From: Arthrobacter sp. PAMC 25486
GTDB taxonomy: Bacteria > Actinomycetota > Actinomycetes > Actinomycetales > Micrococcaceae
Assembly (NCBI RefSeq): GCF_000785535.1
Contig: NZ_CP007595.1
Location: 2,316,439 to 2,380,438 of the forward strand
Length of the DNA stretch: 64,000 nucleotides
Direction of reading: 5' to 3'
This document shows positions 34,016-48,508 of this stretch, in pieces; position 1 is the stretch's first letter, and every line of letters starts with the position of its first letter. Made by a program: the position numbers and the translations under genes. The notes under the pieces were generated by a model, which was given only the letters and a program-made list of their open reading frames with translations, had not been told where the DNA came from and made no database searches.

Positions 34016-34058
34016 GTCTTCGACCTTAGGGACGGCCGATATCGAGGGACAAGGGGCG

Positions 34059-34084
34059 CGTTACACCAGTTCACGCGGCGTCAT
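34059..34084. promoter_or_regulatory. Triple 10-bp repeat motif upstream of cysG (sulfur motif 1)
   Basis: On the minus strand three half-sites, ATGACG, GTGAAC and GTAACG, recur with an exact 10-base period. The nearest edge is 44 bases upstream of the cysG ATG. The same arrangement precedes three other sulfur transcription units. Confidence 0.6.
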
Positions 34085-34207
34085 GGGAGGACACATTCCG
34101 CGAGTTTCATGACGGTACCATTGCGCCGCCGGTAACGGGGCCACCCCGCGGCGGGACGCCCCGCCACAACCGTCCCCAGGACGATTGGATTCGAAAAGAA
34201 GCTTCTG

Positions 34208-34651
34208 CTAGCCGCCCACAACCTCAAGGATGGCCTCGATCTCAATGGCCCTGCCACCGGGCAGCGAGGCGAAACCCAGCGCGCTTCGGGCATGATGGCC
34301 GTATTCCGGACCGAAGAGTTCATGGATGAGGTCCGAGGCCCCATTGATAACGTCCCCATGTTCCGTAAAGTCCGGCGTCGCCTGCACACAACCCATCAAG
34401 CGGACCACCCGCAGTCCTTCCAGCGTGCCGTGTGCCTTGCGGGCAGATGCCAGGAGGCTCAGTATTGCCTCCCTGGCCGCCTGCTGCCCCTCCTCGACGG
34501 TAAGGTCATGGCCCAGCCGGCCCGTGCCCGGGCTGGTATGGCCGGACGTCAAGTAGAGGGAGCCCACTTTGGCACATAGGTTCAGGTAGTCGGATGGTGC
34601 CCCCTCGGCCGGCATGCCGAGAGCCAGTGCGCGTTCATCGATAGTTTTCAT
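34208..34651 (-). CDS. RidA/YjgF/YER057c family protein
   Basis: A 147-residue protein of the RidA superfamily, whose canonical members hydrolyse reactive enamine/imine intermediates to ketoacids. Family features are LTSGHTSPGTGRLGHDLTVE, a central GTLEGLRVVRLMGCVQATPDF and the end ARSALGFASLPGGRAIEIEA with the usual arginine. It belongs to the longer RidA subgroup (about 150 residues) rather than archetypal RidA. The gene stands alone on the minus strand between the Ssu-type transporter and the cysG operon, about 280 bases from the former. Confidence 0.88.
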   Translation of the reverse strand: MKTIDERALALGMPAEGAPSDYLNLCAKVGSLYLTSGHTSPGTGRLGHDLTVEEGQQAAREAILSLLASARKAHGTLEGLRVVRLMGCVQATPDFTEHGDVINGASDLIHELFGPEYGHHARSALGFASLPGGRAIEIEAILEVVGG

Positions 34652-34936
34652 TAGGATCTGCTTTCGGAAAGGGGATGGCTAAATGTTTGCCGTGAAGACG
34701 GTTGCCGGACTGACAATCCACAGCACCTCAGCCATGCTATCCTCCGGTTCCATGCCCGGTGCATTTGATCATTGCGATGCTCCAATCCGGCTCTTTGGAC
34801 GGATCCGGTCGCTGACGCCCCAAGCTCCAGGGTCCAGGGTCCACGGATCCTGGGACCGTACCGCCGAGCTGACAGGTCCAGTTGGTAGGCACCCGCCGTA
34901 TCTGCCAGTTCTGCGGCTTCCTTGTCGCGGTTTTAA

Positions 34937-35833
34937 TTACCGGGTGCTGCCGGCGAGCAGTCCGCGCCCGCGCAGGAGGCGCTTCTCCACCGGGGCGAAC
35001 ACCACGAGCTCCACAAGAATGCCCACGAACAAGATGATCAGGATGGCCGACATCACGATGCCCATGTCGGAGAGCTGACGGCCCTGTTCCAGCAGCGATC
35101 CGAGTCCGAAGCCCAAGGAGCCGCCCATGGCGATGATCTCGGCAGCCATCAAGGACCGCCACGAGAACGCCCAGCCCTGCTTGAGCCCGCCGACGTAACC
35201 GGGCAGCGCGGCCGGGAGCACCACGTTCACGGCCATCTCCCAGCGCGAGGCGCCCAGGATTTGGCCCATGCGGCGGTACTGCGGAGGGATCTGGTCCACA
35301 CCGGCGATGAGCCCGTTGATGATGGACGGGATGGCGCCCATAAACATGACGAAGTAGACGGTGGCGTCGGTCAGCCCGAACCAGATGATGGCGGCCGGCA
35401 CCCACGCCACGGACGGGAGCACCTGCAACCCGGAAATCAGCGGCCCAAACGCGCGGCGCAGCAGACGCACCTGGGAGAGCAGCAAACCGATCGGCGTGGC
35501 CACCACGATGCTGATGGTGAAGCCCATAATGCCGCGCTGCAGCGAGGTCCAGATGGCTTCCTGGGCAGTCCCTGCAGACCACAGCGCACCCAGTGAACCA
35601 AGCACATCCAGCGGCCCCGGCACCAGGTCGCGGCGGCGCAGTCCCAGCGAGACGTAGAACTGCCAGGCGAGCAGCACCACAATGAAGGCGGCCAGCGGCA
35701 GCAGCACCCGGGACCAGTCGACCCCGCGGCGTTCAACGGCCTCGGACTGCAGCGAATCCAGCCCCGCTTCCAGGGAACGCATTTCCTCTTCGGTCCCGCT
35801 CTTGAGCAGCGGCGACGTTACTGTTTCAGGCAT
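34937..35833 (-). CDS. ssuC: ABC transporter permease, SsuC/TauC type
   Basis: A 298-residue integral membrane subunit with six helices and the BPD permease fold. The EAA loop is MGQILGASRWEMAVNVVLPA followed by LPGYVGGLKQGWAFSWRSLM, typical of the nitrate/sulfonate/taurine group. Its start overlaps the ATPase gene stop by 8 bases and forms an operon with ssuB and ssuA. The presence of sulfur-assimilation genes on both sides favours sulfonate or sulfate-ester import over nitrate. Confidence 0.85.
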   Translation of the reverse strand: MPETVTSPLLKSGTEEEMRSLEAGLDSLQSEAVERRGVDWSRVLLPLAAFIVVLLAWQFYVSLGLRRRDLVPGPLDVLGSLGALWSAGTAQEAIWTSLQRGIMGFTISIVVATPIGLLLSQVRLLRRAFGPLISGLQVLPSVAWVPAAIIWFGLTDATVYFVMFMGAIPSIINGLIAGVDQIPPQYRRMGQILGASRWEMAVNVVLPAALPGYVGGLKQGWAFSWRSLMAAEIIAMGGSLGFGLGSLLEQGRQLSDMGIVMSAILIILFVGILVELVVFAPVEKRLLRGRGLLAGSTR

Positions 35834-36623
35834 GTTTGCGGATCTCCTGGCGCAATCGGGTGGTGATGTCGGCGGTCAATGAACCTGCCGCTGCGGCGTT
35901 GGTCCGATGCTCGTCGGAAACGTTCCATTCAGCAACCACGCGCCCCGGCCGCGACGAGAGCAGCAGCACGCGCTGCCCGAGCCGCACAGCCTCGCGCACA
36001 TTGTGGGTGACAAAAATAATGGTCCGGCCGGTCTCTTTCCAGATCCGTTCCAGCTCGTTGTGCAGCAGGTCGCGGGTGATCGCATCCAGCGCGGCGAACG
36101 GCTCATCCATGAGCAGCAGCGGCCGGTCCTGCGCCAGCGACCGTGCCAGCGCCACGCGTTGGCGCATGCCGCCGGAGAGCTCGTGCGGGCGCTTGTCCAT
36201 GGAGTGGCCAAGGTTCACCAGGTCCAGCAGTTCGGCGGCACGCACCCTGCGCTCGGCGCGCCCCACACCGCGCAGCTTCAACGCCATTTCCACGTTGCCG
36301 CGCGCACTGAGCCAGGGGAACAACGATGATTCCTGGAACATGAACGCCGCCCCCGCCTCCGGCACTTCGAGCGCGCCGGCCGAAGGCACGTCAAGCCCGG
36401 AAATGATGTTCAGCAGCGTTGACTTTCCACAGCCGGAGGCCCCCAAGAGGGCCACAAACTCGCCCTGGTAGACGGTCGCGTTGATGTCCTCCAGCACCGG
36501 CGCCCCGCCACCAAAGCGTTTGCCCAGGTTCTCAAGGACGACGGCGGGTGCCCGGCCCGCGCCGTCGGCTCCCCCGCGTCTGCGGCTGTCAGTTTCGGCT
36601 CCGGCAATCAGCAGCTCGGTCAT
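35826..36623 (-). CDS. ssuB: ABC transporter ATP-binding protein, SsuB/TauB type
   Basis: A 265-residue ATPase. Walker A is GASGCGKST, the Q-loop FMFQESSLFPWL, the signature LSGGMRQR, Walker B LLLMDEPFAAL and the switch histidine in VTHNVREAV. The FQE-x-x-LFPW pattern is typical of the SsuB/TauB/NrtD group. Its ATG overlaps the stop of the substrate-binding protein gene as ATGA, and its end overlaps the permease start by 8 bases. A 30-residue charged N-terminal extension precedes the ABC domain. Confidence 0.9.
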   Translation of the reverse strand: MTELLIAGAETDSRRRGGADGAGRAPAVVLENLGKRFGGGAPVLEDINATVYQGEFVALLGASGCGKSTLLNIISGLDVPSAGALEVPEAGAAFMFQESSLFPWLSARGNVEMALKLRGVGRAERRVRAAELLDLVNLGHSMDKRPHELSGGMRQRVALARSLAQDRPLLLMDEPFAALDAITRDLLHNELERIWKETGRTIIFVTHNVREAVRLGQRVLLLSSRPGRVVAEWNVSDEHRTNAAAAGSLTADITTRLRQEIRKHA

Positions 36624-37792
36624 TCTGTTCCCAATCCCGCTGCCGTGACGGGTTGTTGCCCGGCAGCTTTTAGCACCTTATTAAGCAGTGTCAACTCGAA
36701 GAGCCCGTTCAGGTCCGCCGGTTTGGAGACGCCGGCACTGACCCCGTTTTCCAGCAGTTGGGGGAAGGTCCCGGCCAGTGGGTCCGAGGTGAACTTCAGT
36801 TCGGACAGGGACCGCGCAATGACGTCATCCTCCAACGGCTGGCCGATCGCCACCGTCAGGGCGTCGTTAATGACGGCCCCGGCCTCGTCGGGGTGTTCGC
36901 CGAGCCACTTCACTGCATCGACGTGCCCGGCCAGCAGCGCCGCCACGGTTTGCGGGTGTTGCTCCAGGAAGCTCTTATTCACGGCCAGCACGGTGGTGCT
37001 GAATTCGCCCTTGTCCCAGAGGTCACCCTCGTTGACCAGGACCTTGGCCCCGGCCTGCAACACCAGCCGCGAGGTCCACGGCTCGGCGACCCATGCGCCG
37101 TCGATCTTCCCATCCTGAAACAGGCGCAAAGTCTGGGCGTTGGTGGTGGGGGTGATGTTCACGTCGCCGCCGCCGGAGGTGTTGGTTTCCAGTCCGCGCT
37201 CGCCCAGCCACTTGCGCAGCGCCACGTCCTGGGTGCCGCCCAGCTGCGGGGTGGCAATGGTTGCCCCGCGGAGGTCCTCAGCGTCGCTGATGCCGGGCCG
37301 GACCACGAACTGTGCCCCGCCCGACGCCACCCCGGCAATGATCCGGATGGACTCGCCACCGCTCTGCACAAAGGAGTTCAGTGCCGGATTCGGGCCGAGA
37401 TACGCGGCATCGATGGCGCCGGCATTCAGCGCCTCCACCGTGGCAGGTCCCGTGGTGAACACCTGCGTTTCCAGCCCGGTGGCGCCAAGGTCCTTGGCGA
37501 AGATGCCCTTTTCCACGCCCACCAGTGCCGGCCCGTGGGTGATGTTGCCGAAGTAACCTAGCTTGACGACGGCGGCCGGGGTTGCGGCAGCTGCGGCCAT
37601 CCCGGTGTCGCTGGCGCCCTTCGCGTTGACGCTCGCCACGGCGGCTCCGGCCCCGATCAGTGCAACCAAGGCGGTGACGACCAGGATCTCCAGCCCGCGC
37701 ATCTTGTGCTTGGCCTTCTCGCCGGCAACGATGCGTGTGAGGCGCAGGGGCTGGGCTGGCTGCGGCTCGGCAGCGTCTCCGCGTGTAGTCAT
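36620..37792 (-). CDS. ssuA: ABC transporter substrate-binding protein, SsuA/NrtA family
   Basis: A 390-residue secreted binding protein, first gene of the ssuABC-type operon. After a 45-residue polar N-terminus a membrane anchor/signal (LEILVVTALVALIGAGAAVA) leads to the binding domain, with KLGYFGNITHGPALVGVEKG, AGAIDAAYLGPNPALNSFV and PQLGGTQDVALRKWL. No lipobox cysteine is visible, so it is probably tethered by an uncleaved anchor. ATG at 37792 was chosen over an upstream methionine because the latter overlaps the promoter. A triple 10-bp repeat lies about 53 bases upstream. The likely substrate is an alkanesulfonate or related sulfur source. Confidence 0.85.
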   Translation of the reverse strand: MTTRGDAAEPQPAQPLRLTRIVAGEKAKHKMRGLEILVVTALVALIGAGAAVASVNAKGASDTGMAAAAATPAAVVKLGYFGNITHGPALVGVEKGIFAKDLGATGLETQVFTTGPATVEALNAGAIDAAYLGPNPALNSFVQSGGESIRIIAGVASGGAQFVVRPGISDAEDLRGATIATPQLGGTQDVALRKWLGERGLETNTSGGGDVNITPTTNAQTLRLFQDGKIDGAWVAEPWTSRLVLQAGAKVLVNEGDLWDKGEFSTTVLAVNKSFLEQHPQTVAALLAGHVDAVKWLGEHPDEAGAVINDALTVAIGQPLEDDVIARSLSELKFTSDPLAGTFPQLLENGVSAGVSKPADLNGLFELTLLNKVLKAAGQQPVTAAGLGTE

Positions 37793-37844
37793 GGTTAAAC
37801 GGTAGGGAACGCGGGTGGGCTGCATCAATGACCGGGACTCCCAA

Positions 37845-37870
37845 GGTCACGGTAGTTCACGCGGCGTCAC
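37845..37870. promoter_or_regulatory. Triple 10-bp repeat motif upstream of ssuA (sulfur motif 2)
   Basis: On the minus strand the half-sites GTGACG, GTGAAC and GTGACC recur with a 10-base period, the clearest of four copies. It is 53 bases from the ssuA ATG. Confidence 0.65.
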
Positions 37871-37932
37871 AAATAATGCGCCCCCTGCCCTCTGTCACCT
37901 CCGCGCCCGCCCCGGCACTCCCCCCACCCCCT

Positions 37933-38072
37933 CCGCCGAGGTGTGAGATGACGCCCTGTCCCCGGCGGCGCAGGTGAGATGACGCCCTGTCCCCGGCGGC
38001 GCACAGGGCGTCATCTCAAACTTCGACGGATTGGGCTGGCGGCGCACAGGGCGTCATCGCACATCTCGACGG
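37933..38072. repeat. Compound palindrome: two direct and two inverted copies of a GATGACGCCCTGT arm (P4)
   Basis: Two forward copies (starting about 37933 and 37967) and two reverse copies (ending about 38029 and 38072) of an arm with core TGAGATGACGCCCTGT form a nested hairpin array. The outermost arm begins CCGCCGAGGTGTGAGATGAC and shares its outer part with the elements at 23331, 27901 and 29094. It fills the space between the ssuA promoter and the 3' end of the second binding-protein gene, where it may act as a terminator. Confidence 0.8.
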
Positions 38073-38079
38073 AGGAGGG

Positions 38080-39249
38080 TTAGTCCAAGCCGCCCGCGGA
38101 TATCTCGGCAGTACCGGCCTTTTCCAGGATCCGGTTCAAGGGTTTGAGAGCAAAGATCCCGGACAGGTCCGCCTGTTTGCCAACTCCGGCGGTGACACCG
38201 TCCTGCAGCAGTTTCGGGAAGGTGCGCGCCAGCGGGTCCGGTGTGAACTTCAACTCCGACAGGGAGCGGTCGATGACATCCGCCGGCAGTTCCTTTCCCG
38301 CTTGTGCTTTCAAGGCGGCGTTGACCGCCGTGGCTGCGTCTTGGGGATGGGCGTTGAGCCAGTCGATGGCCTCCGTATTGCCCGCCAGTAGGGCGTCCAC
38401 GGTTTCGGGGTGAGCGTCAAGAAAGGCCTTGCTGACAATCAGGATGGTCGTGGCAAAGTCGCCGTCCTCCCACAGATCGGCCTCGTTGATGAGGACCTTT
38501 GCCCCGGCCTGGAGCACCAGGCGGGAGGCCCACGGCTCCGGCAGCCAGGCGCCGTCGAGCTTTCCCTCCTGGAACAGCTTCAGCGTACTGGCGTTGTCGG
38601 TGGGGTTGATGGCGACATCGCCGCCGCCGCTGGGCGTGGTGGCCAGGCCTTCCCCGGCCAACCAGGAACGCAGCGCCACGTCCTGGGTGCCGCCCAATTG
38701 CGGGGTGGCCAGGACCTTTCCGCGCAGTTGCGTCGCCGAGGTGATCTCCGGCCTGACCACCAGCTGCGCCCCGCCGCTCGTGGCCCCGGCGATGATGCGG
38801 ATGGATTCACCGCCGCTTTTCACGAAGGAGTTGATGGCCGGGTTGGGGCCGAGGTAGGCGGCGTCGATGGCGCCGGCGTTCAGGGCCTCGATGGCGGAGG
38901 GACCGGCATTGAACACCTGCGTTTTCAGATCGGTGGCGCCCAGATGCTTGGCGAGGATGCCGTCGTTGACACCGATGAGGGCCGGGGCGTGCGTGACGTT
39001 GGCGAAATAGCCGAGCCGGAGCTCGGCGGCGGGGCCGGCTGCTGCGGCAGGCGGCTCCGTGGTGTCACGGTTTCCCGTGGTGACGGCGGCAACAGCCGCC
39101 CCGGCGCCGATCAGGGCCACCAAGGCGGCGAGGGCCACGATTTCCACGCCGCGAAGTTTCCGGCGGCTCTTTTGGCCCGCCGCAATGCGGCTGGTTTTCA
39201 GCACAGGCATTGCCGGGTATTGCTGCTTGTCAGGGGTTTGCTCAGACAT
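38080..39249 (-). CDS. Orphan ABC substrate-binding protein, paralogue of ssuA
   Basis: A 389-residue close paralogue of the binding protein at 36620. Blocks such as LRLGYFANVTHAPALIGVND, NAGAIDAAYLGPNPAINSFV and TPQLGGTQDVALRSWL match it nearly residue for residue, and the N-terminal anchor GVEIVALAALVALIGAGAAV is also conserved. ATG at 39249 with GAGGA upstream. There is no permease or ATPase beside it, so it may deliver a different sulfur compound to the SsuBC membrane complex. A triple 10-bp repeat lies about 180 bases upstream. Confidence 0.85.
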   Translation of the reverse strand: MSEQTPDKQQYPAMPVLKTSRIAAGQKSRRKLRGVEIVALAALVALIGAGAAVAAVTTGNRDTTEPPAAAAGPAAELRLGYFANVTHAPALIGVNDGILAKHLGATDLKTQVFNAGPSAIEALNAGAIDAAYLGPNPAINSFVKSGGESIRIIAGATSGGAQLVVRPEITSATQLRGKVLATPQLGGTQDVALRSWLAGEGLATTPSGGGDVAINPTDNASTLKLFQEGKLDGAWLPEPWASRLVLQAGAKVLINEADLWEDGDFATTILIVSKAFLDAHPETVDALLAGNTEAIDWLNAHPQDAATAVNAALKAQAGKELPADVIDRSLSELKFTPDPLARTFPKLLQDGVTAGVGKQADLSGIFALKPLNRILEKAGTAEISAGGLD

Positions 39250-39429
39250 GGGGATTCCTCGGAATGAAGGGGATGGCGGGCTTAGGTCTGGGGCCTGCTA
39301 CATCGCGGTGAGAATCGGGGCTGTCTGGTGGAAACGGCCGGAATCTGGGCGGTCCCGGCCGTGGCTGATTTCTTCATTCACCAAGGCTAGAAACCGGAAC
39401 GGCGCCGCTTCAACAGTCCCGACGCTCGG

Positions 39430-39455
39430 GGTCACGGACGTTCACACCCCGTCAT
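39430..39455. promoter_or_regulatory. Triple 10-bp repeat motif upstream of the orphan binding protein (sulfur motif 3)
   Basis: Minus-strand half-sites ATGACG, GTGAAC and GTGACC recur with a 10-base period. The motif lies 181 bases from the start codon, further than in the other copies, suggesting a long leader. Confidence 0.6.
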
Positions 39456-39478
39456 AAAGCGTGCGGCCGCTCATTCCC

Positions 39479-40288
39479 TCACAGCCCGCCCGAACCCACC
39501 GGGCCCGCGCCCACCGCCCGCCGATAGCTGCTGGCCGTGATGCCAAGGAAGCGCTGGAAATCGTTGGCCAGATGGGCTTGGTCAGCGTAGCCGAACTCGG
39601 CTGCCACGGCCGCCAGGTCCATCTCAGGGTGGGCGCGGGCATGGTCGGCAGCCTCCTGCAGGCGCCGCCGCCGGATCAGGGCCGAAGGGCTCAACCCCAC
39701 GTACTTCTTTGCCATCCGTTGCAACGTTCTCGTGGACACCGACAGCTGCGCCGCCGCATCCTCGATACGGACCAGTTCCGGGTTGTTCGCGATGGCCTCC
39801 GTCATGGCGTTGGCCAGCAGGGCCTCCGCGGACGCTTCCGGTAGCTGCTCCGCCAGCCAATCGGCGAAAATGGCGACGGCCTTTTCCCGCTGCTCTTCCG
39901 GTGCTGCCCCGCCCATGGCATGCACGACGGCGGCCAGCAGCTTGGGTGCCTCAACGTCCAGTCGGGCGTCGCACAGCTCCCGCGGATTGGCGGCAAAGAA
40001 CGGAACCGCCGCCGGTTTCAGGAGTGCACCCACCGCCCAGCCCGTCCCGCTGAGGTCTTGATGTGAGACCCGGGTTGTGGGACCGGATAGCTCCATCCCG
40101 TCGGGCTGCACCACGAGGTTGCAGGCCGGGTAGGCGAGCAGTTGCTGGCGGGAGACGCGCCCCGGTGCAATGTCCCATTCCGGGATCCAAAACCACTGTA
40201 CGAGGTGTTCAACGGTTGCGGGCGCGGGCAGGCGGTGGAACATTGGAAGGCGGGCGGGATACAGGATTCCCTTGAAGCTGCTGCTCAC
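39479..40288 (-). CDS. AraC-family transcriptional regulator
   Basis: A 269-residue regulator. The N-terminal half (GILYPARLPMFHRLPAPATV and FWIPEWDIAPG) is the ligand/dimer domain seen in many actinobacterial AraC proteins of the DUF6597 type. Residues about 165-262 hold the double helix-turn-helix: VRIEDAAAQLSVSTRTLQRM for the first and DLAAVAAEFGYADQAHLAND for the second, followed by FQRFLGITASSYR. The GTG start at 40288 keeps the full conserved N-terminus. It is divergent from a VOC-family gene 90 bases away, which it may regulate. Confidence 0.88.
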   Translation of the reverse strand: MSSSFKGILYPARLPMFHRLPAPATVEHLVQWFWIPEWDIAPGRVSRQQLLAYPACNLVVQPDGMELSGPTTRVSHQDLSGTGWAVGALLKPAAVPFFAANPRELCDARLDVEAPKLLAAVVHAMGGAAPEEQREKAVAIFADWLAEQLPEASAEALLANAMTEAIANNPELVRIEDAAAQLSVSTRTLQRMAKKYVGLSPSALIRRRRLQEAADHARAHPEMDLAAVAAEFGYADQAHLANDFQRFLGITASSYRRAVGAGPVGSGGL

Positions 40289-40378
40289 CTTGCAATTCTA
40301 TGGGCAGTGCCGGTGCCATGGGCAGGGATGTCGCGAATCTACAAGCCTCCAGGAACCAGGCTGCGTAGCGTTGCTGAC

Positions 40379-40891
40379 ATGAACAAATCACCAGAACTTG
40401 AAAAGTCCACCGCCGCCCACGGCCAGTTCACCAACCACGGCATTCCGCAGGGCCTCACCAGCCTGACACCGTTTTTGGCCATCCCCCGCGCCGCGGAGGC
40501 CATCGCGTTCTACGAGGACATTTTTGGGGCACGGACCGTTGCAGTCACCGAGTTTGCCGGTGTCGTGGCTCATGCGGAGCTGGACTTCGGCCAGGGCCAC
40601 CTCCAGATGGGCGAGCCCAACCCGGATTACCACCTGGTCCCGGCGCCGGAAGGCGACGCCGACTGCTATTCGATCGCCCTGTACTGTTCCGATGTTGACG
40701 CTGTTGTGGACCGTGCCGTCAAGGCTGGCGCAACGGTCAGGGAACCCGTCACCAACTTCGTCTCGGGCGACCGTTTTGCCAGCATCCGGGATCCCTTTGG
40801 CGTGCGTTGGTCCATCATGACCCGGGTTGAGGACATCTCGGAAGGGGAAAGTGCCGCACGCGTTGCGGGCTGGGCCGCAGCCCAGGGGTGA
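40379..40891 (+). CDS. VOC-family (PhnB/glyoxalase-like) protein
   Basis: A 170-residue vicinal-oxygen-chelate fold protein. SLTPFLAIPRAAEAIAFYED starts the domain after a 27-residue polar extension, and ASIRDPFGVRWSIMTRVEDI ends it, as in PhnB-like proteins. VOC proteins include glyoxalases, dioxygenases and antibiotic-binding proteins; the metal ligands are not clear enough here to assign an activity. ATG at 40379. It is divergent from the AraC regulator. Confidence 0.82.
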   Translation: MNKSPELEKSTAAHGQFTNHGIPQGLTSLTPFLAIPRAAEAIAFYEDIFGARTVAVTEFAGVVAHAELDFGQGHLQMGEPNPDYHLVPAPEGDADCYSIALYCSDVDAVVDRAVKAGATVREPVTNFVSGDRFASIRDPFGVRWSIMTRVEDISEGESAARVAGWAAAQG

Positions 40892-40956
40892 TCACCGTGG
40901 CCAGCGCTGAATCCCGGAGCGAAGATGGCGTGGTTTCCTTCCCTCGCTTCGCAGGC

Positions 40957-41973
40957 TCAGCCGTCCTGCTGGTCATCCCACTCATCGCGGAGCCTGCGCA
41001 GGCGTGAAAGCAGCTTTGACTCGCGGTTCCTGTCACTGCCCACCGACTTCGTGGCATCCACATAAGATTCCCCAAAGGACTGCAGCAGGAGATCGTCGGC
41101 AATGCGGACCTGGCCGGGGTTGAAGCGGTAGGCCATGAGCTTGGCAACCTTCCGCTCATCGATCGACCTGAACCAGTCCTCTGCCGCACTGACGGTGTCG
41201 ATGCCGTTCGCGGCGAGGACGTGCACCATCCAGTCGTATTGATTTTCCTTGCTGCTGCGGTACTGCGGGAAGGCACGATTCAGCACGCCCTGAAGGGACC
41301 CGGCGTCGAGCGTTTGGGTCTCGGGAACCGGGTCGATGGCGCCTTCGGACTGAAGCCGCTTCAGGGTGTCGGCAATGTTCACGAACTGCTGGTCAGCGAG
41401 TTCAATCAGTGTGGAGGCCATGGTGAATGCGCGGCTAATTTCGGCGTTGTCGCCGCTGGAGCCCTTGAAACGGATGTCGTGCTCAAACTCGGCCCAGGCG
41501 TGCTGGAGGACCGTTCGGATCTGGACTTCGAAACGGTAACCGGCATAGTCCCGGCAATTGGTGGGCGGGTTGTCCGCGGGCACTTCAAGGGTCAGGTGCC
41601 GCCCGGCGTAGCCAATGCCACCGTTCTTGCGCATGATGGCCGTCTTGTCTTCATCGTCGTGACAGGTGAACTGGCTCGTCAGCGCGATTGCGACCGCATC
41701 AATATCGGACTCCACGTACAAAATGACGCGCACGCCGATCAGGTCGTCGAGGCGTTCCAGGCCGCCGGGGTACTTCAGCTCGCCATTGTCGCAGCGGCGG
41801 GACATTTTCTCGGCGGCGGATGCAGCGCTTTTAACCCGGAATTTCACGTCATGGTGGTTCAGGCCGTCGTCGTGAAGCCGTCCCACAATGGTGTCGCGAA
41901 TGGCCTGCGCTGCGTCATTGAGTGCCTGCTTCCGGAACCGCGACTCATCCATTGCAAACTCTGCATCTTCCAC
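40957..41973 (-). CDS. RelA/SpoT-domain small alarmone synthetase-like protein
   Basis: A 338-residue protein whose residues 40-170 match the (p)ppGpp synthetase domain: FRVKSAASAAEKMSRR, the DDLIGVRVI strand with the catalytic aspartate region, GYAGRHLTLEV, and the FEVQIRTVLQHAWAEFEHD block holding the Glu-x-Gln motif (about 149-151) and H158/W160. There is no HD hydrolase domain and no TGS/ACT domains, so it is not the housekeeping Rel. The C-terminal 140 residues are unassigned, rich in Trp, Arg and Asp, and unlike the short tail of standard small synthetases. Start GTG at 41973, or ATG at 41952. It might be a stress alarmone synthetase or a toxSAS-like enzyme. Confidence 0.82.
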   Translation of the reverse strand: MEDAEFAMDESRFRKQALNDAAQAIRDTIVGRLHDDGLNHHDVKFRVKSAASAAEKMSRRCDNGELKYPGGLERLDDLIGVRVILYVESDIDAVAIALTSQFTCHDDEDKTAIMRKNGGIGYAGRHLTLEVPADNPPTNCRDYAGYRFEVQIRTVLQHAWAEFEHDIRFKGSSGDNAEISRAFTMASTLIELADQQFVNIADTLKRLQSEGAIDPVPETQTLDAGSLQGVLNRAFPQYRSSKENQYDWMVHVLAANGIDTVSAAEDWFRSIDERKVAKLMAYRFNPGQVRIADDLLLQSFGESYVDATKSVGSDRNRESKLLSRLRRLRDEWDDQQDG

Positions 41974-42141
41974 GGTCTGACTTCCGATGGTGTCCCCCTG
42001 CCCTCCGACCCGGAAATCCCGGCCCTACTTCAAATTCTCCCAGCTTTGCAGGGCTTGTCCAGCACAACGGGCGGGCGGTTGGTTCGGTTCCAGGCAGTGC
42101 GGGCCGGCCCCTGGGGATCCAGCCTGCACTGACCTGTGGAA

Positions 42142-42330
42142 CTGGCGGTGACTAGCCGATCAGCGCGATGGTGCGGGCCCTGCTGACCTCCTGGCACCAC
42201 TTGGCACTGTCCTTGAGGATGCGTGTTCTCCACGACCTCCTACAAAATCTGGCCGAGCCCAAATGTCAGGCCCTGCTGGGAAACTGAAATTGCTCCGCCA
42301 GCAGGCGGTCATTCAGGAAGGAGAACCCGA
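42142..42330. other. Non-coding or decayed stretch between the alarmone synthetase and the YhcG-like remnant
   Basis: No intact gene is supported. A short minus-strand frame ending at the TAG at 42152-42154 (reading KWCQEVSRARTIALIG at its end) looks protein-like but has no start and could be the tail of a lost gene. Nothing else is recognised here. Confidence 0.4.
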
Positions 42331-42590
42331 GTGGTCGACAAATTGAATCCCACGCCCGATTCCGATTCCGATTCCGACAACACCGTCATTCCCCATGACC
42401 ACTATCGCTTTCTCGACTCGCTCAAGGCCCAGGGCGGGCAGCGCAGGTGCAGGCCCGCCGGAGCGTCGATACCCAACTGATCAGCTTGTACTGGTCCATC
42501 GGCCACGAGATCCACACCCGCCAGAATCAGGATGGCTGGGCCGCGGAGCCATTGGCAGGCTGGGCCCGCGTCGAAGCGCTAGTTGACCCC
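42331..42590 (+). pseudogene. Remnant of a YhcG/DUF1016-type nuclease-family gene, frameshifted and truncated
   Basis: A GTG at 42331 (preceded by AGGAAGGAG) opens VDKLNPTPDSDSDSDN then HYRFLDSLKAQ; the frame then breaks near 42435-42450 and continues in another as VQARRSVDTQLISLYWSIGH then EIHTRQNQDGW. The second part matches the N-terminal helical region of YhcG/DUF1016 proteins (a PD-(D/E)xK-linked family), in which the LYW-x-IG-x-x-I motif is highly conserved. The remaining 250 or so residues including the nuclease domain are missing; after the DGW the frame continues to a stop at 42717-42719 with unrelated sequence. It is a decayed fragment. Confidence 0.6.
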
Positions 42591-42743
42591 CGCAATGTGC
42601 GCATGATTGAACGACTCGACAAGGCAGGCAGCCATACCTGCATGCAACGAAGGATGTACATCGGTGTGAAGAGTGCTCATAAATACAATAAACAGCCATA
42701 CACAACTGTCATCAGCTGACGTTCAGCCTGTGGTGAAGAACCC

Positions 42744-43205
42744 TCAAGCGTGGCCCAGGCCCGATGCTTGTTGCTCCTGCTCTGCCATGAACGCCTCGGG
42801 GCCCTGCTCCGCCGCTTTGGGGTCCATCCACATTGCGCTGAACCAGTTGCCGTCGGGGTCCTCGAAGTCGCGGGCGTACATGAATCCCATGTCCTGGGCG
42901 GGGCGGGGCTCGGCCCCTCCCGCAGCCAGCACCTTCTCCAGCATGGCGTCCACATCCTCGCGGCTGTCCCGGCTGAATGCGGTCTGCACCTGCAAGTGCG
43001 TGCTGGGATCAATAATCGTCTTGTCGGTGAACGTGGCATAAAACGTGGGGGTGAGCACCATCAGGTAGATGTTCTCGTCGACAAGGATGCAGGCGGCGTT
43101 CTCATCGGTGAAATTCGGTTGGATCGCCCAGCCAATCCCCTCAAAGAAGGCCTTGGAGCGGTCCAAATCTGCGGTGGGAAGGTTGACGAATACTTGCGTG
43201 GCCAT
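42744..43205 (-). CDS. VOC-family (glyoxalase/bleomycin-resistance-like) protein
   Basis: A 153-residue single-domain VOC protein. It opens VFVNLPTADLDRSKAFFEGI and closes with ARDFEDPDGNWFSAMWMDPK, the typical beta-alpha-beta-beta-beta ends; the tail is Gln/Glu-rich. It belongs to the subgroup often annotated as glyoxalase or extradiol dioxygenase-like without known substrate. It lies alone downstream of the cysN terminator and is unrelated in operon terms to the sulfur genes. Confidence 0.85.
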   Translation of the reverse strand: MATQVFVNLPTADLDRSKAFFEGIGWAIQPNFTDENAACILVDENIYLMVLTPTFYATFTDKTIIDPSTHLQVQTAFSRDSREDVDAMLEKVLAAGGAEPRPAQDMGFMYARDFEDPDGNWFSAMWMDPKAAEQGPEAFMAEQEQQASGLGHA

Positions 43206-43303
43206 GGCGTTCTCCCTAGTTCCAGCAACGATGGGCCGAGATTTTTCGGCACCACTTCATCGTTTCGGAGCGCGGGAGGCGCGTCAATGGCTGGGCCCGT
43301 AAA

Positions 43304-43368
43304 AAATGATCCCGATCCACCATTCGACACCGGGATGTCGGTGTCAGAAAGCGGGATCGGGATCATTT
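43304..43368 (-). terminator. Strong double-hairpin terminator of the sir-cysHDN operon
   Basis: A perfect 15-bp outer stem (AAATGATCCCGATCC with its complement at 43354-43368) encloses a 7-bp inner hairpin (GACACCG/CGGTGTC). On the minus strand TTTTTTACGG follows directly, overlapping the last stem bases. It ends transcription about 40-100 bases past the cysN stop. Confidence 0.88.
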
Positions 43369-43407
43369 CTCGGCGTGGGGTCCGGGTCTCGACAAACTCG
43401 ACAAACG

Positions 43408-44799
43408 TCAGATGCTGTAGCGCTCGTCCTCGTGGTCGCCCGGGTGGTCCTTGACCAGGCCGGCTGCCAGGGTGTTGCCGTCCTGCGGGTCGATCACCAG
43501 GAACGCGCCGGTGCGGCGGTGCCGGGCATACGACTCAATCGGCAACGCCGAGGCCAGGCGGATCTGGGCCGTGCCAATGTCATTGAGCTCCAGCCCTGAG
43601 GCACCCTGATACGTGAACGACTCCAACTCCAGCTTGCCCGTCACGGCGCGGATCAGGCCCTGCACGGTCTTGCTGCCGTGCTTGATCAACACCTTGGAAC
43701 CTTCGCGCAGCGGCTTCGTGGACAGCCAGCACAGCTCCGCGTACAAATCCTGGCTGACCTCGCCAAAGGTGCCGGTGGCCGCGATGACGTCGCCGCGGGC
43801 AATGTCGATCTCCTCGCTCAGCCGCAGCGACACCGACTGAGGGGCCACCGCGCGATCGAGTGAACGGCCGGCAAAGTCGATGCCCACCACGGTGGCGGTC
43901 CGGCTCGAGGGCAATACCGTAATCGACTCTCCCACCGCGACGGCGCCCGAGGCGACCTGGCCGGCATAGGCTCGGTAATCGCGGAAGGAGGCTCCGGCGT
44001 CGTCCGCGGCGGCAAGCGCGGGAGCCAGCGCACCCTGCGGCCGCACCACCAGCTGGACCGGGAAGCGGAACGGCTCGAGGCCGCGCTCCAGCTCGTCGGT
44101 GGTGGGCAGCGTTTCGAGCAGCTCCAGCAGGCTGGGCCCGGTGTACCAGGGGGTGTGGGCGGAGCGCTCCACGACGTTGTCGCCCTCCAGCGCGGAGACC
44201 GGAATGACCACGACATCGCCGAGGCCAATGTCCTCGGCGACCGCTTGGACGTCGTCCTCGATGGCGCGGAAGATGTCCTCGCTGAAGTCCACGAGGTCGA
44301 TCTTGTTCACGGCCACAATCACATTAGGCACACGCAGGAGGCGCAGCACCGACAGGTGCCGGCGGGTCTGCTCCAGGACCCCCTTGCGTGCGTCAATAAG
44401 CACGACGACGGCATCCGCAGTGGACGCGCCCGTCACCGTGTTCTTGGTGTACTGGATGTGCCCGGGGCAGTCGGCGAGGATGAAGCTGCGGCGGTCGGTG
44501 GCGAAGTAGCGGTAGGCGACGTCGATCGTGATGCCCTGCTCGCGCTCGGCACGCAGGCCGTCGGTCAGCAGCGCCAGGTCGATCTTCTGGGTGCTGCCGA
44601 ACCCGGTGCCGAAGCCGCGGTCCGCCGAGGTGCGGGTGACGGCGTCGAGCGTGTCGGCCAGAATGGCCTTGGAGTCGTGGAGCAGGCGGCCCACGAGGGT
44701 TGACTTGCCGTCGTCGACGGAGCCGGCCGTGGCGAAGCGGAACAGGGTGGCGTGGGCCAGGGGGGCTTCTTGCAGCAGTGTCTGCGTGTCGGTGCTCAT
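43408..44799 (-). CDS. cysN: Sulfate adenylyltransferase subunit 1 (GTPase)
   Basis: A 463-residue EF-Tu-like GTPase that drives ATP sulfurylase. G1 is ATAGSVDDGKSTLVGRLLHD, G3 is DCPGHIQYTKN and G4 is NKIDLVD. There is no fused APS kinase (CysC) domain, consistent with APS rather than PAPS being reduced. The start ATG overlaps the cysD stop by one base (TAATG). Last gene of the sir-cysH-cysD-cysN operon. Confidence 0.94.
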   Translation of the reverse strand: MSTDTQTLLQEAPLAHATLFRFATAGSVDDGKSTLVGRLLHDSKAILADTLDAVTRTSADRGFGTGFGSTQKIDLALLTDGLRAEREQGITIDVAYRYFATDRRSFILADCPGHIQYTKNTVTGASTADAVVVLIDARKGVLEQTRRHLSVLRLLRVPNVIVAVNKIDLVDFSEDIFRAIEDDVQAVAEDIGLGDVVVIPVSALEGDNVVERSAHTPWYTGPSLLELLETLPTTDELERGLEPFRFPVQLVVRPQGALAPALAAADDAGASFRDYRAYAGQVASGAVAVGESITVLPSSRTATVVGIDFAGRSLDRAVAPQSVSLRLSEEIDIARGDVIAATGTFGEVSQDLYAELCWLSTKPLREGSKVLIKHGSKTVQGLIRAVTGKLELESFTYQGASGLELNDIGTAQIRLASALPIESYARHRRTGAFLVIDPQDGNTLAAGLVKDHPGDHEDERYSI

Positions 44800-45749
44800 T
44801 AGAAGTAGCCGTCTTTCTTGCGGTCTTCCATGGCGGCCTCGGAGATGCGGTCATCGGCCCGGGTGGCGCCACGTTCGGTCAGGGTGGAGGCGGCAACTTC
44901 ACGCACTACGTCGTGGACGGTGGTGGCGTCGGAGGCTACGGCGCCGGTGCAGGACATGTCCCCCACGGTGCGGTAGCGGACCTGCTTGATGACGACGTGC
45001 TCATCGGGACGGGGCTCCGAGACCGGACCCACCGCACGCCACATGCCATCGCGCTCATACACTTCGCGGTCATGGGCGTAGTACAGGCCCGGCAGCTCGA
45101 TGTTCTCGCGGGCAATGTAGCGCCAGATGTCCAGCTCGGTCCAGTTGCTGATGGGGAACGCACGCACGTGCTGACCCACCGTGTGGCGGCCGTTGTACAG
45201 GTTCCACAGCTCGGGGCGCTGGTTGCGCGGATCCCACTGGCCAAACTCGTCACGGAGGCTCAGGATGCGTTCCTTGGCGCGGGCCTTGTCCTCGTCGCGG
45301 CGGCCGCCGCCGAAAACGGCGTCGAACGTGTTCTTGGCGATGGCATCCAGCAGCGGCGCCGTTTGCAACGGGTTGCGGGTGCCGTCGGCGCGCTCGGCCA
45401 GCTCACCGGAATCGATGAACGCCTGAACCGAACCAACCTCAATGCGCAGGCCCAACCGCTCAACCGTGCGGTCGCGGAACTCGATGACCTCCGGGAAGTT
45501 GTGACCGGTGTCCACGTGCAGCACGGGGAACGGCACCTTGCCGGGCCAGAACGCCTTGGTGGCCAGGTGCAGCATCACCACCGAGTCCTTGCCGCCGGAA
45601 AAGAGCAGCGCGGGGCGCTCAAACTCGGCGACCACCTCGCGGATGATGTGGATGGCCTCGGATTCGAGCAGGTCCAGGGAGTTCAAGGTCTCCCCGGCCG
45701 CCGGTGCAATCCCGGGGCTCAGGTCGTTGTCGATCGTTTGGGTGCTCAT
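44799..45749 (-). CDS. cysD: Sulfate adenylyltransferase subunit 2
   Basis: A 316-residue PP-loop adenylyltransferase forming APS from sulfate and ATP together with CysN. The PP-loop is ALLFSGGKDSVVMLHLA; HVDTGHNFPEVIEFRD and VFGGGRRDEDKARAKER are hallmark CysD blocks. The ATG at 45749 overlaps the cysH stop as ATGA; an in-frame ATG 15 bases upstream is also possible. Confidence 0.94.
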   Translation of the reverse strand: MSTQTIDNDLSPGIAPAAGETLNSLDLLESEAIHIIREVVAEFERPALLFSGGKDSVVMLHLATKAFWPGKVPFPVLHVDTGHNFPEVIEFRDRTVERLGLRIEVGSVQAFIDSGELAERADGTRNPLQTAPLLDAIAKNTFDAVFGGGRRDEDKARAKERILSLRDEFGQWDPRNQRPELWNLYNGRHTVGQHVRAFPISNWTELDIWRYIARENIELPGLYYAHDREVYERDGMWRAVGPVSEPRPDEHVVIKQVRYRTVGDMSCTGAVASDATTVHDVVREVAASTLTERGATRADDRISEAAMEDRKKDGYF

Positions 45750-46504
45750 ACGTGTAGTCCGCATTCTGTCTTGGAGGTTCCGGCCCAGCGTCCGGACCTG
45801 GGGTCGGCGCCGGGGGCCACTTTGTTGGTGCAGGGGGCACATCCGATGGACGGGTAGCCCTGGCTGAGGAGTGGGTTCACGGGCAGGAGGTTGTCGTCGG
45901 AGTAGCTGATCAGCTCGTCGTACGTCCAGTCGGCGACGGGGTTGACCTTGACGAGGCCGTTCTTTTCGTCCCACACCACCAGCGGGGTGTTGGTGCGGGT
46001 GGGTGCCTCGTCGCGACGCACACCGGTGAACCACAGCTCGTATCCTGACAGGGAACGGGAGAGCGGTTCGACCTTCCGCAGCGCACAGCACTGGGCCGGG
46101 TCGCGGGCAAAGAGGTCCTTGCCCAGCAGCGAATCCTGCTCCGCCACGGTGTTCGCCGGCTCTACAGCGACAATGTTCACGCGCAGGTTCTCGGCCACTG
46201 CATCACGCGTGGCGTACGTTTCCGGGAAGTGATAGCCGGTGTCCAGAAACAGCACGTCGACGCCGGGCAACTGGTCCGCCACAAGTGCCGGCAACACTGC
46301 ATCGGCCATGGAACAGGCGACGGCGGCCGTACTGCTTGCGAAGTTCCGCGCCACCCAGGCGATGACCTCCTGGGCGGACGCGTTCCAGTCCAGTTCCGCG
46401 GCACCGGCGGCGGCACGGGCCTTCAGCTCCTCGTGCGAACGCAGCGTACGGGTCTCGCCCCCCACCGGTTCGACCGATGGCAGGGGCGTGCTTGCAACGG
46501 TCAT
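45746..46504 (-). CDS. cysH: Adenylyl-sulfate (APS) reductase, iron-sulfur type
   Basis: A 252-residue reductase producing sulfite from APS. It has the DTGYHFPETYATRD block and the [4Fe-4S]-binding pattern of assimilatory APS reductases: CC in DPAQCCALRKVEPL and C-x-x-C in IGCAPCTNKV. The catalytic C-terminal cysteine is in KTECGLH. The cysteines separate it from PAPS reductases of the enteric type. It overlaps sir upstream (ATGA) and cysD downstream (ATGA). Confidence 0.93.
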   Translation of the reverse strand: MTVASTPLPSVEPVGGETRTLRSHEELKARAAAGAAELDWNASAQEVIAWVARNFASSTAAVACSMADAVLPALVADQLPGVDVLFLDTGYHFPETYATRDAVAENLRVNIVAVEPANTVAEQDSLLGKDLFARDPAQCCALRKVEPLSRSLSGYELWFTGVRRDEAPTRTNTPLVVWDEKNGLVKVNPVADWTYDELISYSDDNLLPVNPLLSQGYPSIGCAPCTNKVAPGADPRSGRWAGTSKTECGLHV

Positions 46505-48273
46505 GTCAGCAGCTCCTCATCCACCCGGTGCGCAAATTCTGCGAAAGTCTCCTCGGAGATGCGGTTGGCCGCGTAGCTGCGGATGACGCGCTCCACGTAG
46601 TCGGAGAGGTCGTCCACCGCCACCTTGAGCCCGCGAACGGTGCGGCCCAGGCCTGCCTCCTCGCGGTTCTGCGAAGCCAGCCCGCCACCCAGGTGAACCT
46701 GGAAACCGCCTGTTGTGCCGCCGTCGTCCGTGGGAACGACGATCCCCTTCAGGCCGATGTCCGCCGTCTGGATGCGGGCGCAGGAGTTGGGGCAGCCGTT
46801 GATGTTCAGGGTGATCGGGTCGCCCAGCAGGCCAGCGTCGATCAGGTCGGTCATGCGTTGTTCGAGTTCTCCGATGACGTGCTCGGCCGTGTCCTTGGTG
46901 TTGACGATGGCGAGCTTGCAGAATTCGATGCCCGTGCAGGCCATGGTGTTGCGGCGGAACACGGACGGCCGGGCGGACAGGCCAATGGTGTCGAGCCCCG
47001 CGATGACGGTTTCGACGTCTGCGCCGGCGATGTCCAGGGCCAGGATCTTCTGGTGCGGTGTGGTGCGCAGGCGGTGCGAGCCGTGGGTCTCGAGGAGGTC
47101 GGCGAGCGCCACGAGCTTGTCGCCGGAGAGCCGACCAACGAAGGGGGCCGAGCCGATGAAGAACTTGCCGTCCTTCTGCTCGTGGACGCCAACGTGGTCG
47201 CCGAGGTCTTTGGCCTGCGGCGGCACAATGCCCTCGGGAAGCTTGCGGCCCAGGTATTCGTCTTCAAGGATTTGGCGGAACTTCTCCACACCCCAGTCGG
47301 CGATCAGGAACTTCAGGCGGGCCTTGTTGCGCATGCGCCGGTAGCCGTAGTCACGGAAGATGCTCGTGACGGCCTCCCACACGGCGGGCCCGTCCTCCGG
47401 CGGCACAAAAACGCCGACGCGCTGGGCCAGTCGCGGCGCCGTGGACAGCCCGCCGCCAACCCACAGGTCGTAGCCGGGGCCGAGTTCGGGGTGGCGCACG
47501 CCCACGAAGGAGACATCGTTGATCTCGTGCACCGTGTCCTGGTTCGGGTGGCCGGTGATGGAGGTCTTGTACTTACGCGGCAGGTTGGAGAACTCCGGGT
47601 TGCCAATGAAGCGACGGTTCAATTCCAGGATGAATTCGGTGGGGTCAAGGATTTCCTCCTTGGCAATCCCGGCCACCGGGGAGCCAAGAATGACGCGGGG
47701 AACATCGCCGCAGGCCTCGGTGGTTGAGAGGCCAACGGCTTCCAGGCGGCGCCAGATCTCCGGCACGCTTTCCACCTCCACCCAGTGCAGTTGGATGTTC
47801 TGCCGGTTGGTCAAATCAGCGGTGCCGCGGGCAAAGTCGCGCGAGATCTGGCCGATGACGCGCAGTTGCTCGGTGGTGAGACTGCCGCCGTCGATCCTCA
47901 CCCGCAGCATGAGGAACTTGTCCTCGAGCTCGTGCGGTTCCAGCGAGGCCGTCTTGCCGCCGTCGATCCCCTGCTTGCGCTGCGTGTACAGCCCCCACCA
48001 GCGGAAGCGGCCGTGCAGGTCGTCATCGGTGATGGCGTCGAAGCCCTCATGCGCGTAAATGGTCTCGATGCGGTGGCGCACGGAGAGGCCGTCGTCGTCC
48101 TGCTTCCACACCTCGACCGGGTTCAGCGGGGCCTTGCCGTCAACCTTCCACTGCCCGTGCGGCTTGGCTGCGGGACGGGGGCGTGCCGTGCGGACCGGCT
48201 TTTCGGCGGGGGCGTCGGTGGGTGCGGTGGCGGCGCTCTGGGCGTTCGCTCCGGCTAGAGCTGTCTGTGTCAT
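46501..48273 (-). CDS. sir: Ferredoxin-dependent sulfite reductase
   Basis: A 590-residue sirohaem/[4Fe-4S] enzyme reducing sulfite to sulfide, first gene of the operon. The cluster ligands are visible as CTGIEFC and GCPNSC. Two ferredoxin-like half-domains repeat, and the N-terminal 45 residues are Ala/Pro-rich. Its length and the absence of an NADPH flavoprotein subunit point to ferredoxin as donor, supplied presumably by FprA copy 2; sirohaem comes from CysG and SirB. NirA-type nitrite reductases are related, but cysHDN beside it settles the role. A triple 10-bp motif lies 43 bases upstream. Confidence 0.93.
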   Translation of the reverse strand: MTQTALAGANAQSAATAPTDAPAEKPVRTARPRPAAKPHGQWKVDGKAPLNPVEVWKQDDDGLSVRHRIETIYAHEGFDAITDDDLHGRFRWWGLYTQRKQGIDGGKTASLEPHELEDKFLMLRVRIDGGSLTTEQLRVIGQISRDFARGTADLTNRQNIQLHWVEVESVPEIWRRLEAVGLSTTEACGDVPRVILGSPVAGIAKEEILDPTEFILELNRRFIGNPEFSNLPRKYKTSITGHPNQDTVHEINDVSFVGVRHPELGPGYDLWVGGGLSTAPRLAQRVGVFVPPEDGPAVWEAVTSIFRDYGYRRMRNKARLKFLIADWGVEKFRQILEDEYLGRKLPEGIVPPQAKDLGDHVGVHEQKDGKFFIGSAPFVGRLSGDKLVALADLLETHGSHRLRTTPHQKILALDIAGADVETVIAGLDTIGLSARPSVFRRNTMACTGIEFCKLAIVNTKDTAEHVIGELEQRMTDLIDAGLLGDPITLNINGCPNSCARIQTADIGLKGIVVPTDDGGTTGGFQVHLGGGLASQNREEAGLGRTVRGLKVAVDDLSDYVERVIRSYAANRISEETFAEFAHRVDEELLT

Positions 48274-48315
48274 GAAACGAGCGTAGGTTGCCGCATCCCC
48301 CGAGCCAATCAGCTT

Positions 48316-48341
48316 TGCAACGCTGGTTCACCTTGGGCAAC
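48316..48341. promoter_or_regulatory. Triple 10-bp repeat motif upstream of sir (sulfur motif 4)
   Basis: Minus-strand half-sites GTTGCC, GTGAAC and GTTGCA recur with a 10-base period, 43 bases upstream of the sir ATG. The outer half-sites deviate from the GTGAC seen in the other three copies. Confidence 0.5.
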
Positions 48342-48508
48342 ATTTCGTCACACCCACCATTTATGGGCGGGGTGTGCTGGGCGGAGCCTTGGCGGGCGTC
48401 TGTGGCTGCACGGCACAATGATTCCCCTTGAGGGACAGGGCCCGCGCAGGAAGCACCCCCTGCGGTGCGGAACGGCCGTGCACTTTGGGCCCGCGCAGGG
48501 TTAACGGG

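Follow-up and report, generated by a model that had tools for sequence, protein, structure and literature searches.

What could join the genes for sirohaem synthesis, sulfonate uptake and sulfate reduction under one control in Arthrobacter-type bacteria? We have addressed this question in a stretch of 64,000 nucleotides of Arthrobacter sp. PAMC 25486 (contig NZ_CP007595.1, positions 2,316,439 to 2,380,438; hereafter the window, numbered from its first letter), where a direct-repeat motif lies upstream of the sirohaem synthase gene cysG, the sulfonate-binding protein gene ssuA, an orphan ssuA paralogue and the reductase gene sir. Our literature search, outside which most subscription journals lay, found no sulfur regulator or operator for Arthrobacter or its family, the Micrococcaceae. 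Based on the structure, conservation and position of the motif, we consider it probable that it is the operator of a sulfur-assimilation activator in Arthrobacter-type Micrococcaceae, to which some ssuA genes would add a second layer of control in their leader.

Structure of the arrays

Direct reading of the sequence reveals four arrays, all on the minus strand, before cysG, ssuA, the orphan ssuA and sir, as the first-pass annotation of this DNA had claimed; the exact 10-bp period between half-sites and GTGAAC as the central half-site were likewise found in all four. The same annotation had counted three half-sites per array, which is wrong, since each triple is part of four in-register half-sites. 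The cysG operator (34059..34094) reads, in the 5'-3' direction of the minus strand, GTGTCC-TCCC-ATGACG-CCGC-GTGAAC-TGGT-GTAACG, in which the additional in-register half-site GTGTCC (34089-34094) precedes the triple at 34084..34059; cysG copies occur also in relatives. The sir operator (48316..48351) reads GTGACG-AAAT-GTTGCC-CAAG-GTGAAC-CAGC-GTTGCA, its first half-site being an extra GTGACG at 48346-48351 that had been overlooked next to the triple at 48341..48316. The fourth half-site is weak in both the ssuA operator (37835..37870; GTGACG-CCGC-GTGAAC-TACC-GTGACC-TTGG-GAGTCC), where GAGTCC (37835-37840) follows the triple at 37870..37845, and the orphan ssuA operator (39420..39455; ATGACG-GGGT-GTGAAC-GTCC-GTGACC-CCGA-GCGTCG), where GCGTCG (39420-39425) follows the triple at 39455..39430. 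The earlier reading of a one-face, head-to-tail oligomer site is upheld, with the number of half-sites corrected to four.

A pattern of the type given in the first-pass annotation has three matches in the window, while 200 first-order Markov resamples contain none. A looser pattern, three half-sites of the form [AG]T[GTA][AG][AC][CG], matches once per array (34059, 37845, 39430 and 48326, the sir match being one half-site out of register with the earlier triple), against a chance expectation of 0.15 +/- 0.40 per window in 200 first-order resamples. The operator observation is real and stronger than first described.

The consensus from 41 Arthrobacter-group loci is RTGACG-N4-RTKNMC-N4-GTGAMY-N4-RTTKC, found before sir, ssuA and cysG, with four head-to-tail half-sites per array at an exact 10-bp pitch; the matrix was trained on the unique sites of these 41 loci, so that scores within them are not independent. 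When the same half-site columns were re-spaced over 820,798 bp, pitch 10 gave 97 matches with a score >20, pitch 9 gave 4, and pitches 7, 8 and 11-14 gave none, a result that speaks for the rigidity of the pitch and not for its discovery, the matrix having been trained at pitch 10. Among 117 distinct arrays, half-sites 1 and 3 are mostly GTGAC, half-site 4 is mostly GTTTC or GTTGC and half-site 2 is mixed, and at ssuA the second half-site is often like the first. We read the array as a putative 20-bp unit (GTGAC box + GTTTC box) repeated two or three times. Six in-register half-sites are present in three loci, L216 (9898-9953), L220 (9868-9923) and L221 (9942-9997). The first of these arrays precedes a second ssuA-type unit, which has luciferase-like and TauD-type genes next to it, and the other two, from two genomes, precede a flavin reductase gene; they widen the target set in some genomes.

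The four-site matrix built from relatives finds the window copies at sir, ssuA and the orphan ssuA at a threshold of 9 and misses the one at cysG, which is the most diverged of the four. Pattern scans of the whole own genome (one contig, 4.59 Mb) yielded no convincing further copy outside the sir-ssu-cysG cluster. A pattern that includes the -35 element matched only the two ssuA promoters there, with one match in the reversed control.

Conservation and distribution

In one scan, 80 sir loci from named organisms were compared, 41 from the Arthrobacter group and 39 from others. In 40 of the 41 Arthrobacter-group loci the 200 bp before sir contain an array scoring >20, and the exception (L035) is a locus sequence that begins just 59 bases before the sir match. 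None of the 39 other loci, among them 23 from Streptomyces and one from Rothia koreensis, exceeds 11 (best 1.6). The main targets are sir, ssuA/ssuB and cysG. The motif is thus kept at the orthologous promoters of near relatives, and its conservation at these three genes supports the earlier proposal of a sulfur-regulon operator linking sirohaem, sulfonate uptake and sulfate reduction.

Nor is the motif spread at random. Among 25 genomes reached via their sir loci, 22 have matches with up to two mismatches (reversed control: two genomes, G001 and G017), and the matches with 0-1 mismatches, assigned by position and sequence type, fall nearly all in the sir-ssu-cysG cluster. With at most one mismatch, 57 of 245 Micrococcaceae genomes and 12 of 32 genera have matches, the reversed control matching in two genomes. 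All 16 genomes of the window's own genus match, its own included, as do 16 of 17 in a second genus (g10), 13 of them with exactly three sites; the one g10 genome without a match (G131) is not among the 57 sir-positive genomes, sir being present in 57 of 110 family genomes and 20 of 32 genera. Matches outside the family are at control level: an order-level draw gave matches in 17 of 396 genomes, and the two that lie outside the family (G351, G617) equal the two matches of the reversed control. In a check for drift in 32 sir loci, mostly of motif-poor genera, scores above 11 are listed for six loci at sir, on its upstream side (L270-L272, L274-L276), and for L250 at ssuB. Some other motif-poor loci have one or two half-sites, judged by eye only.

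Outside the core targets, single matches near unrelated genes occur in L219, L223 and L224, and we regard these as mostly chance. In L215 (9940-11340), from a genome that is not among the sir-positive ones, an array with leaderless geometry stands before a gene for a 456-aa MFS transporter, possibly a sulfur-compound carrier. Four Streptomyces loci (L072:1236, L082:9732, L087:9714, L092:9690) contain, about 260-310 bp before the sir match, GTCTCG or GTCCCG followed 13 bases on by GGAC, a recurrent sequence that is possibly the site of another regulator. Besides, 30 of the 41 Arthrobacter-group loci encode a protein family about 7 kb into the locus (e.g., L021:6967-7809), a few kb upstream of sir; the single member scanned belongs to AbiEi/DUF559, and the family has no match in the window.

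Predicted promoter geometry

Promoter elements were predicted from sequence, and the gene labels in this tally and in that of the leaders were assigned automatically. A -10-like TANNNT starts 29-31 nt after the array at 59 of 59 sir, 45 of 47 ssuA and 13 of 13 cysG sites, and at 24 of 30 other or unassigned sites, while TTG starts 6-7 nt after the array at 47/59, 44/47 and 12/13 of the sir, ssuA and cysG sites, respectively. At most sites an ATG follows 41-43 nt after the array; at 28 sir sites the tally first picked up a misplaced ATG at 38-39 nt. With the -10 element in its usual position, 6-7 nt from the transcription start, the first nucleotides of the mRNA would be those of the start codon. 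The array keeps a constant distance from the predicted -35 and lies entirely on its upstream side, which is the position of an activator. Tandem head-to-tail repeats at a fixed distance upstream of or at the -35, as found here with predicted promoter elements, are also the arrangement of OmpR/PhoB-type sites. The operator, its pitch and targets and the promoter geometry come from the sequence itself, as does the leader ORF described below; activation, a sulfur signal, leaderless starts, the winged-helix class of the reader and attenuation are what we infer.

In the window, the start codons of sir (48273), ssuA (37792) and cysG (34015) fit this leaderless geometry. The predicted cysG core promoter (34023..34052) consists of TTGTCC (34052-34047) and TAAGGT (34028-34023), that of ssuA (37799..37828) of TTGATG (37828-37823) and TACCGT (37804-37799), and that of sir (48280..48308) of TTGGCT (48308-48303) and TACGCT (48285-48280). 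All genes concerned lie, like the operators and promoters, on the minus strand. The sirohaem synthase gene cysG (32723..34015) scores above the cut-offs of TIGR01469 and TIGR01470. The sulfonate-type substrate-binding protein gene ssuA (36620..37792, start re-set to the ATG at 37792) scores above that of TIGR01728 and is accompanied (34937..36623) by genes for an ABC ATP-binding protein (35826-36623) and a permease (34937-35833), called ssuB and ssuC by context, with no NCBIfam model over its cut-off among those listed. Downstream of the sulfite/nitrite reductase gene sir (46501..48273; PF01077, PF03460) lie, within 43408..46504, cysH (45746-46504, with a phosphoadenosine phosphosulfate reductase domain), cysD (listed open reading frame (ORF) 44799-46091) and cysN (43408-44799).

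Short leader ORFs at ssuA

The orphan ssuA (38080..39249, minus strand, just above the TIGR01728 cut-off) departs from this arrangement. The start predicted from its core promoter (39384..39413; TTGAAG at 39413-39408, TAGCCT at 39389-39384) is that of a leaderless ORF of 31 codons (39377-39282), not the ssuA start codon; the ORF is followed by a GAGGA ribosome-binding site and by the ssuA ATG at 39249. It ends in RFSPRCSRPQT-stop, with CGA-TGT for the Arg-Cys pair, and is a candidate cysteine attenuator.

In total, the window and 20 relatives (e.g., L014:20761, L022:16025, L225:4609) yielded 21 such leader ORFs, which are 18-43 codons long. They end in Arg-Cys, in one case Thr-Cys, followed by 3-5 residues and the stop codon, and 20 of them use CGA-TGT. 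Both codons are rare in these loci (CGA 3.9% of Arg codons, TGT 11.9% of Cys codons), and Cys makes up 0.75% of residues. The survey started from 157 sites followed closely by an ATG, which opens a long ORF at 136 of them and a short one at 21. Among these 21, picked regardless of Cys, 18 have a Cys codon near the stop; the remaining three, MTSRDPA (L027), MVW (L221) and an alternative frame (L020), were left out, and L045, L049 and a corrected reading of L020 were added, so that the final set has the Cys codon in 21 of 21. By sequence, the leader ORFs start directly after the -10. Runs of consecutive Cys codons do not characterize them, Cys-Cys being present only in L014 and L225.

The association with ssuA also emerges from a scan that made no use of the operator. 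In 2.84 Mb of sequence from loci that had been selected for sir, the motif or candidate genes, we looked for a -10-like hexamer, an ATG and CGATG[TC] near the stop and recovered 19 distinct ORFs. Another ORF follows within 120 nt in 17 cases, and it is an ssuA-type gene in all of them (a label that for L014 was taken from its start). Fifteen other hexamers gave 0-3 each in the same scan. One long ORF (L216) begins with CGA-TGC. Such a leader is absent from the first ssuA of the window and from loci like L015 (Pseudarthrobacter), where ssuA itself is predicted to be the leaderless ORF. Rfam returned two matches for positions 30000-52000 of the window, both far below the gathering score and both to microRNA families. 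The Arg-Cys leader ORF is likely a cysteine attenuator, and it would respond to cysteine. No cysteine leader ORFs were found for Arthrobacter's family in our literature search, with the same limit as to subscription journals.

Proposed mechanism

We hypothesize that four half-sites, or six at a few promoters, would lie head to tail on one face of the DNA at a 10-bp pitch. About 6 nt would separate the end of the array from the -35 of a sigma-70-type promoter downstream, and transcription from this promoter would begin on the start codon or no more than a few nucleotides from it. When sulfur is limiting, two (or three) tandem dimers of an activator would occupy the array and recruit RNA polymerase, so that the genes for sulfate reduction (sir-cysHDN), for sulfonate uptake (ssu) and for the synthesis of sirohaem (cysG) would be turned on together. 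At some ssuA units, a second, post-initiation control would be exerted by the leaderless short ORF ending in Arg-Cys-x(3-5)-stop, in which the progress of the ribosome over the rare CGA-UGU codons might report the supply of Cys-tRNA before ssuA is translated. We advance only tentatively the bolder view that a new activator polymerises on a 10-bp lattice of GlnR-like half-sites, the pitch separating sulfur from nitrogen control, and that a new, rare-codon Arg-Cys mini-ORF senses cysteine on the same transcript.

Several observations weigh against this proposal. In the own genome the triple with up to two mismatches has six matches (three exact ones, which are the non-sir copies, and three with two mismatches), as many as the reversed control, and a related pattern with up to three mismatches has four, against six in the control; degenerate matches do not outnumber the control there, so that only near-exact copies stand out. 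The own-genome copies are also weaker than those of most relatives. About eleven sir-bearing Micrococcaceae genera have an absent or degenerate array at sir, which means that sir does not require the array and limits our claim to part of the family. Among the neighbouring ORFs mapped, of which selected ones were scanned with Pfam, no regulator gene recurs beside the array. Just 288 of 468 half-sites fit the GlnR-like form G[TA]NAC on the bottom strand (86, 50, 78 and 74 of 117 arrays for half-sites 1-4), and the GTnAC/GaAAC forms of the array point away from the gene, opposite to the boxes at glnA, so that the likeness to GlnR sites may be superficial. As for the leader, CGA-TGT ORFs occur at 0 of 54 sir and 0 of 26 cysG starts examined in the automatic tally, the window's first ssuA has none, and a conserved RNA fold was sought in the leader and not found.

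The proposal nevertheless has practical consequences. The operator is a concrete bait for its regulator and predicts transcription starts and targets in dozens of genomes, and the presumed requirement of the leader for CGA-UGU codons is directly testable. The operator also suggests that a difference in pitch may be enough to keep sulfur control apart from nitrogen control where the DNA-reading domains are related.

Candidate readers of the array

The GlnR/PhoP-like half-sites in head-to-tail repeats favour a winged helix of the OmpR/PhoB type, related to the heads of GlnR and PhoP, as the reader of the array, and we lean slightly towards this class. The genes around the array do not name the protein. 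No known sulfur regulator is among the annotated genes of the window, in agreement with the first-pass annotation. Pfam scans of selected neighbours gave a methyltransferase, a glycine transporter, AbiEi/DUF559, PadR, TetR and others, none of them recurrent beside the array. The winged-helix domain PF00486 has 13 matches in the own genome, of which 11 exceed the cut-off, and none of them could be linked to the array. In a search for plasmid-borne copies with a linked regulator, none of the 15 matches listed of 259 came from Micrococcaceae.

The main rival is an AraC/XylS-type activator, whose two helix-turn-helix motifs would let one monomer read each 20-bp unit (GTGAC box + GTTTC box), with a dimer next to the -35. 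We consider it unlikely, although the difference of half-sites 1 and 3 from half-site 4 does give a 20-bp unit that occurs twice just upstream of the -35. Arrays of three units are awkward for a dimer, and the frequent resemblance of the second half-site to the first at ssuA also speaks against this reader. An AraC-type gene (39479-40288) adjoins the window's orphan ssuA, but gene-by-gene maps of seven relatives' loci show a homologue in L014 alone, and the further mapped loci other than L014 have no gene with this label. This particular gene was rejected as the reader, as it is not conserved with the motif.

Somewhat less probable still is that a known global winged-helix regulator, GlnR, MtrA or an orphan GlnR-like protein, reads the array and ties sulfur to nitrogen or general physiology. 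The forms of the half-sites match those of GlnR-type sites, and the own genome encodes an orphan protein (G000:C1:3366155-3366976) whose winged helix resembles the PhoB, MtrA and TorR models and whose recognition helix, ERTIDVHIRRLR, is close to TRTVDVHVRRLR of the L093 protein, which we take to be GlnR. However, GlnR-type 11-bp boxes coexist upstream of glnA in three relatives (L280-L282) and keep their 11-bp pitch there; the same pattern finds no glnA box in the own genome. The orphan is present in 244 of 245 family genomes, whereas sir is present in only 57 of 110, and co-occurrence with the motif therefore cannot support it as the reader. Those of its 120 listed homologues that are named bear generic names (winged-helix protein, transcriptional regulator, hypothetical protein, once regX3), and no sulfur gene was seen by eye in its 17-kb neighbourhood. 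Overall, the orphan is only a weak candidate. It is highly conserved (L100, L166), lacks a receiver domain and adjoins a gene that by eye resembles a SixA-type phosphatase.

An operator for a repressor that blocks the promoter in sulfur-replete cells is improbable. Direct-repeat arrays can also serve repression, but this array stays at its fixed distance before the predicted -35 and leaves the whole region from -35 to +1 free. Least of all do we expect NnaR, the HemD-winged-helix regulator of nitrate assimilation, to read the array on account of the sirohaem that links sir and cysG: an NnaR-like protein is encoded in the own genome (G000:C1:4259181-4260317) and the NnaR-linked operon of Mycobacterium abscessus contains the sirohaem gene sirB (PMC11162112), yet the mycobacterial NnaR motif is a spaced palindrome (PMC6277429) and NnaR was rejected because no match at E<=1e-40 exists in four motif-bearing genomes (G077, G101, G044, G051).

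Comparison with known systems

Among the systems closest to the array, read on our preferred view as the site of a winged-helix activator, is the GlnR box of actinomycetes, gTnAc-n6-GaAAc in an a-b-a-b order (PMC10704036). On its other strand the array typically shows GTCAC and GAAAC, the GTnAC and GaAAC forms of that box, and GlnR sites too run head to tail, as a single box or a pair in front of genes for assimilation (PMC10704036). In 117 arrays, bottom-strand half-sites 1 and 3 are mostly GTCAC and half-site 4 is mostly GAAAC, half-site 2 being mixed. Besides its orientation, the array differs in its pitch, 10 bp instead of the 11 bp set by the n6 spacer (97 matches at 10 and none at 11, with a matrix trained at 10), and in serving sulfur instead of nitrogen genes.

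The central half-site read as its reverse complement is GTTCAC, a sequence contained in the Streptomyces coelicolor PhoP core GTTCACC (PMC4415409). The PHO boxes of PhoB and PhoP resemble the array as head-to-tail direct repeats read by tandem effector domains, and differ in that their units are 11 nt and their targets phosphate genes. The tor boxes are 10-bp direct repeats, and TorR is an OmpR-family protein. Several repeated tor boxes are read by TorR as an activator (PMC9239176), whereas its half-site is another one, its target is a respiratory gene and its input is two-component.

Also among the closest systems are CysR and SsuR of Corynebacterium glutamicum, activators of actinobacterial sulfate-reduction and sulfonate genes, with leaderless transcripts at the sulfonate genes (PMC2580772). 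They are, however, ROK proteins with a predicted site that is a 10-bp inverted repeat, TGAAtnnAAt (PMC2580772), whereas the arrays are direct repeats of another sequence. The NnaR regulon differs as well, the regulator being missing from four of the genomes in which the operator occurs.

As to the leader, Canestrari et al. (2020) reportedly described polycysteine leaderless short ORFs of mycobacteria. Mycobacterial leaderless short ORFs with Cys codons before cysteine and sulfur genes have been reported as cysteine-responsive attenuators (PMC13236596, PMC9031893, PMC9094748, PMC4633059). The ssuA leaders share with them the leaderless short ORF with Cys codons before sulfur genes. They differ in having mostly a single Cys within an Arg-Cys pair, encoded by a near-invariant CGA-TGT, and in being coupled to a direct-repeat operator. 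If the Arg-Cys leader ORF acts as we propose, cysteine attenuation would extend from mycobacteria to soil Micrococcaceae.

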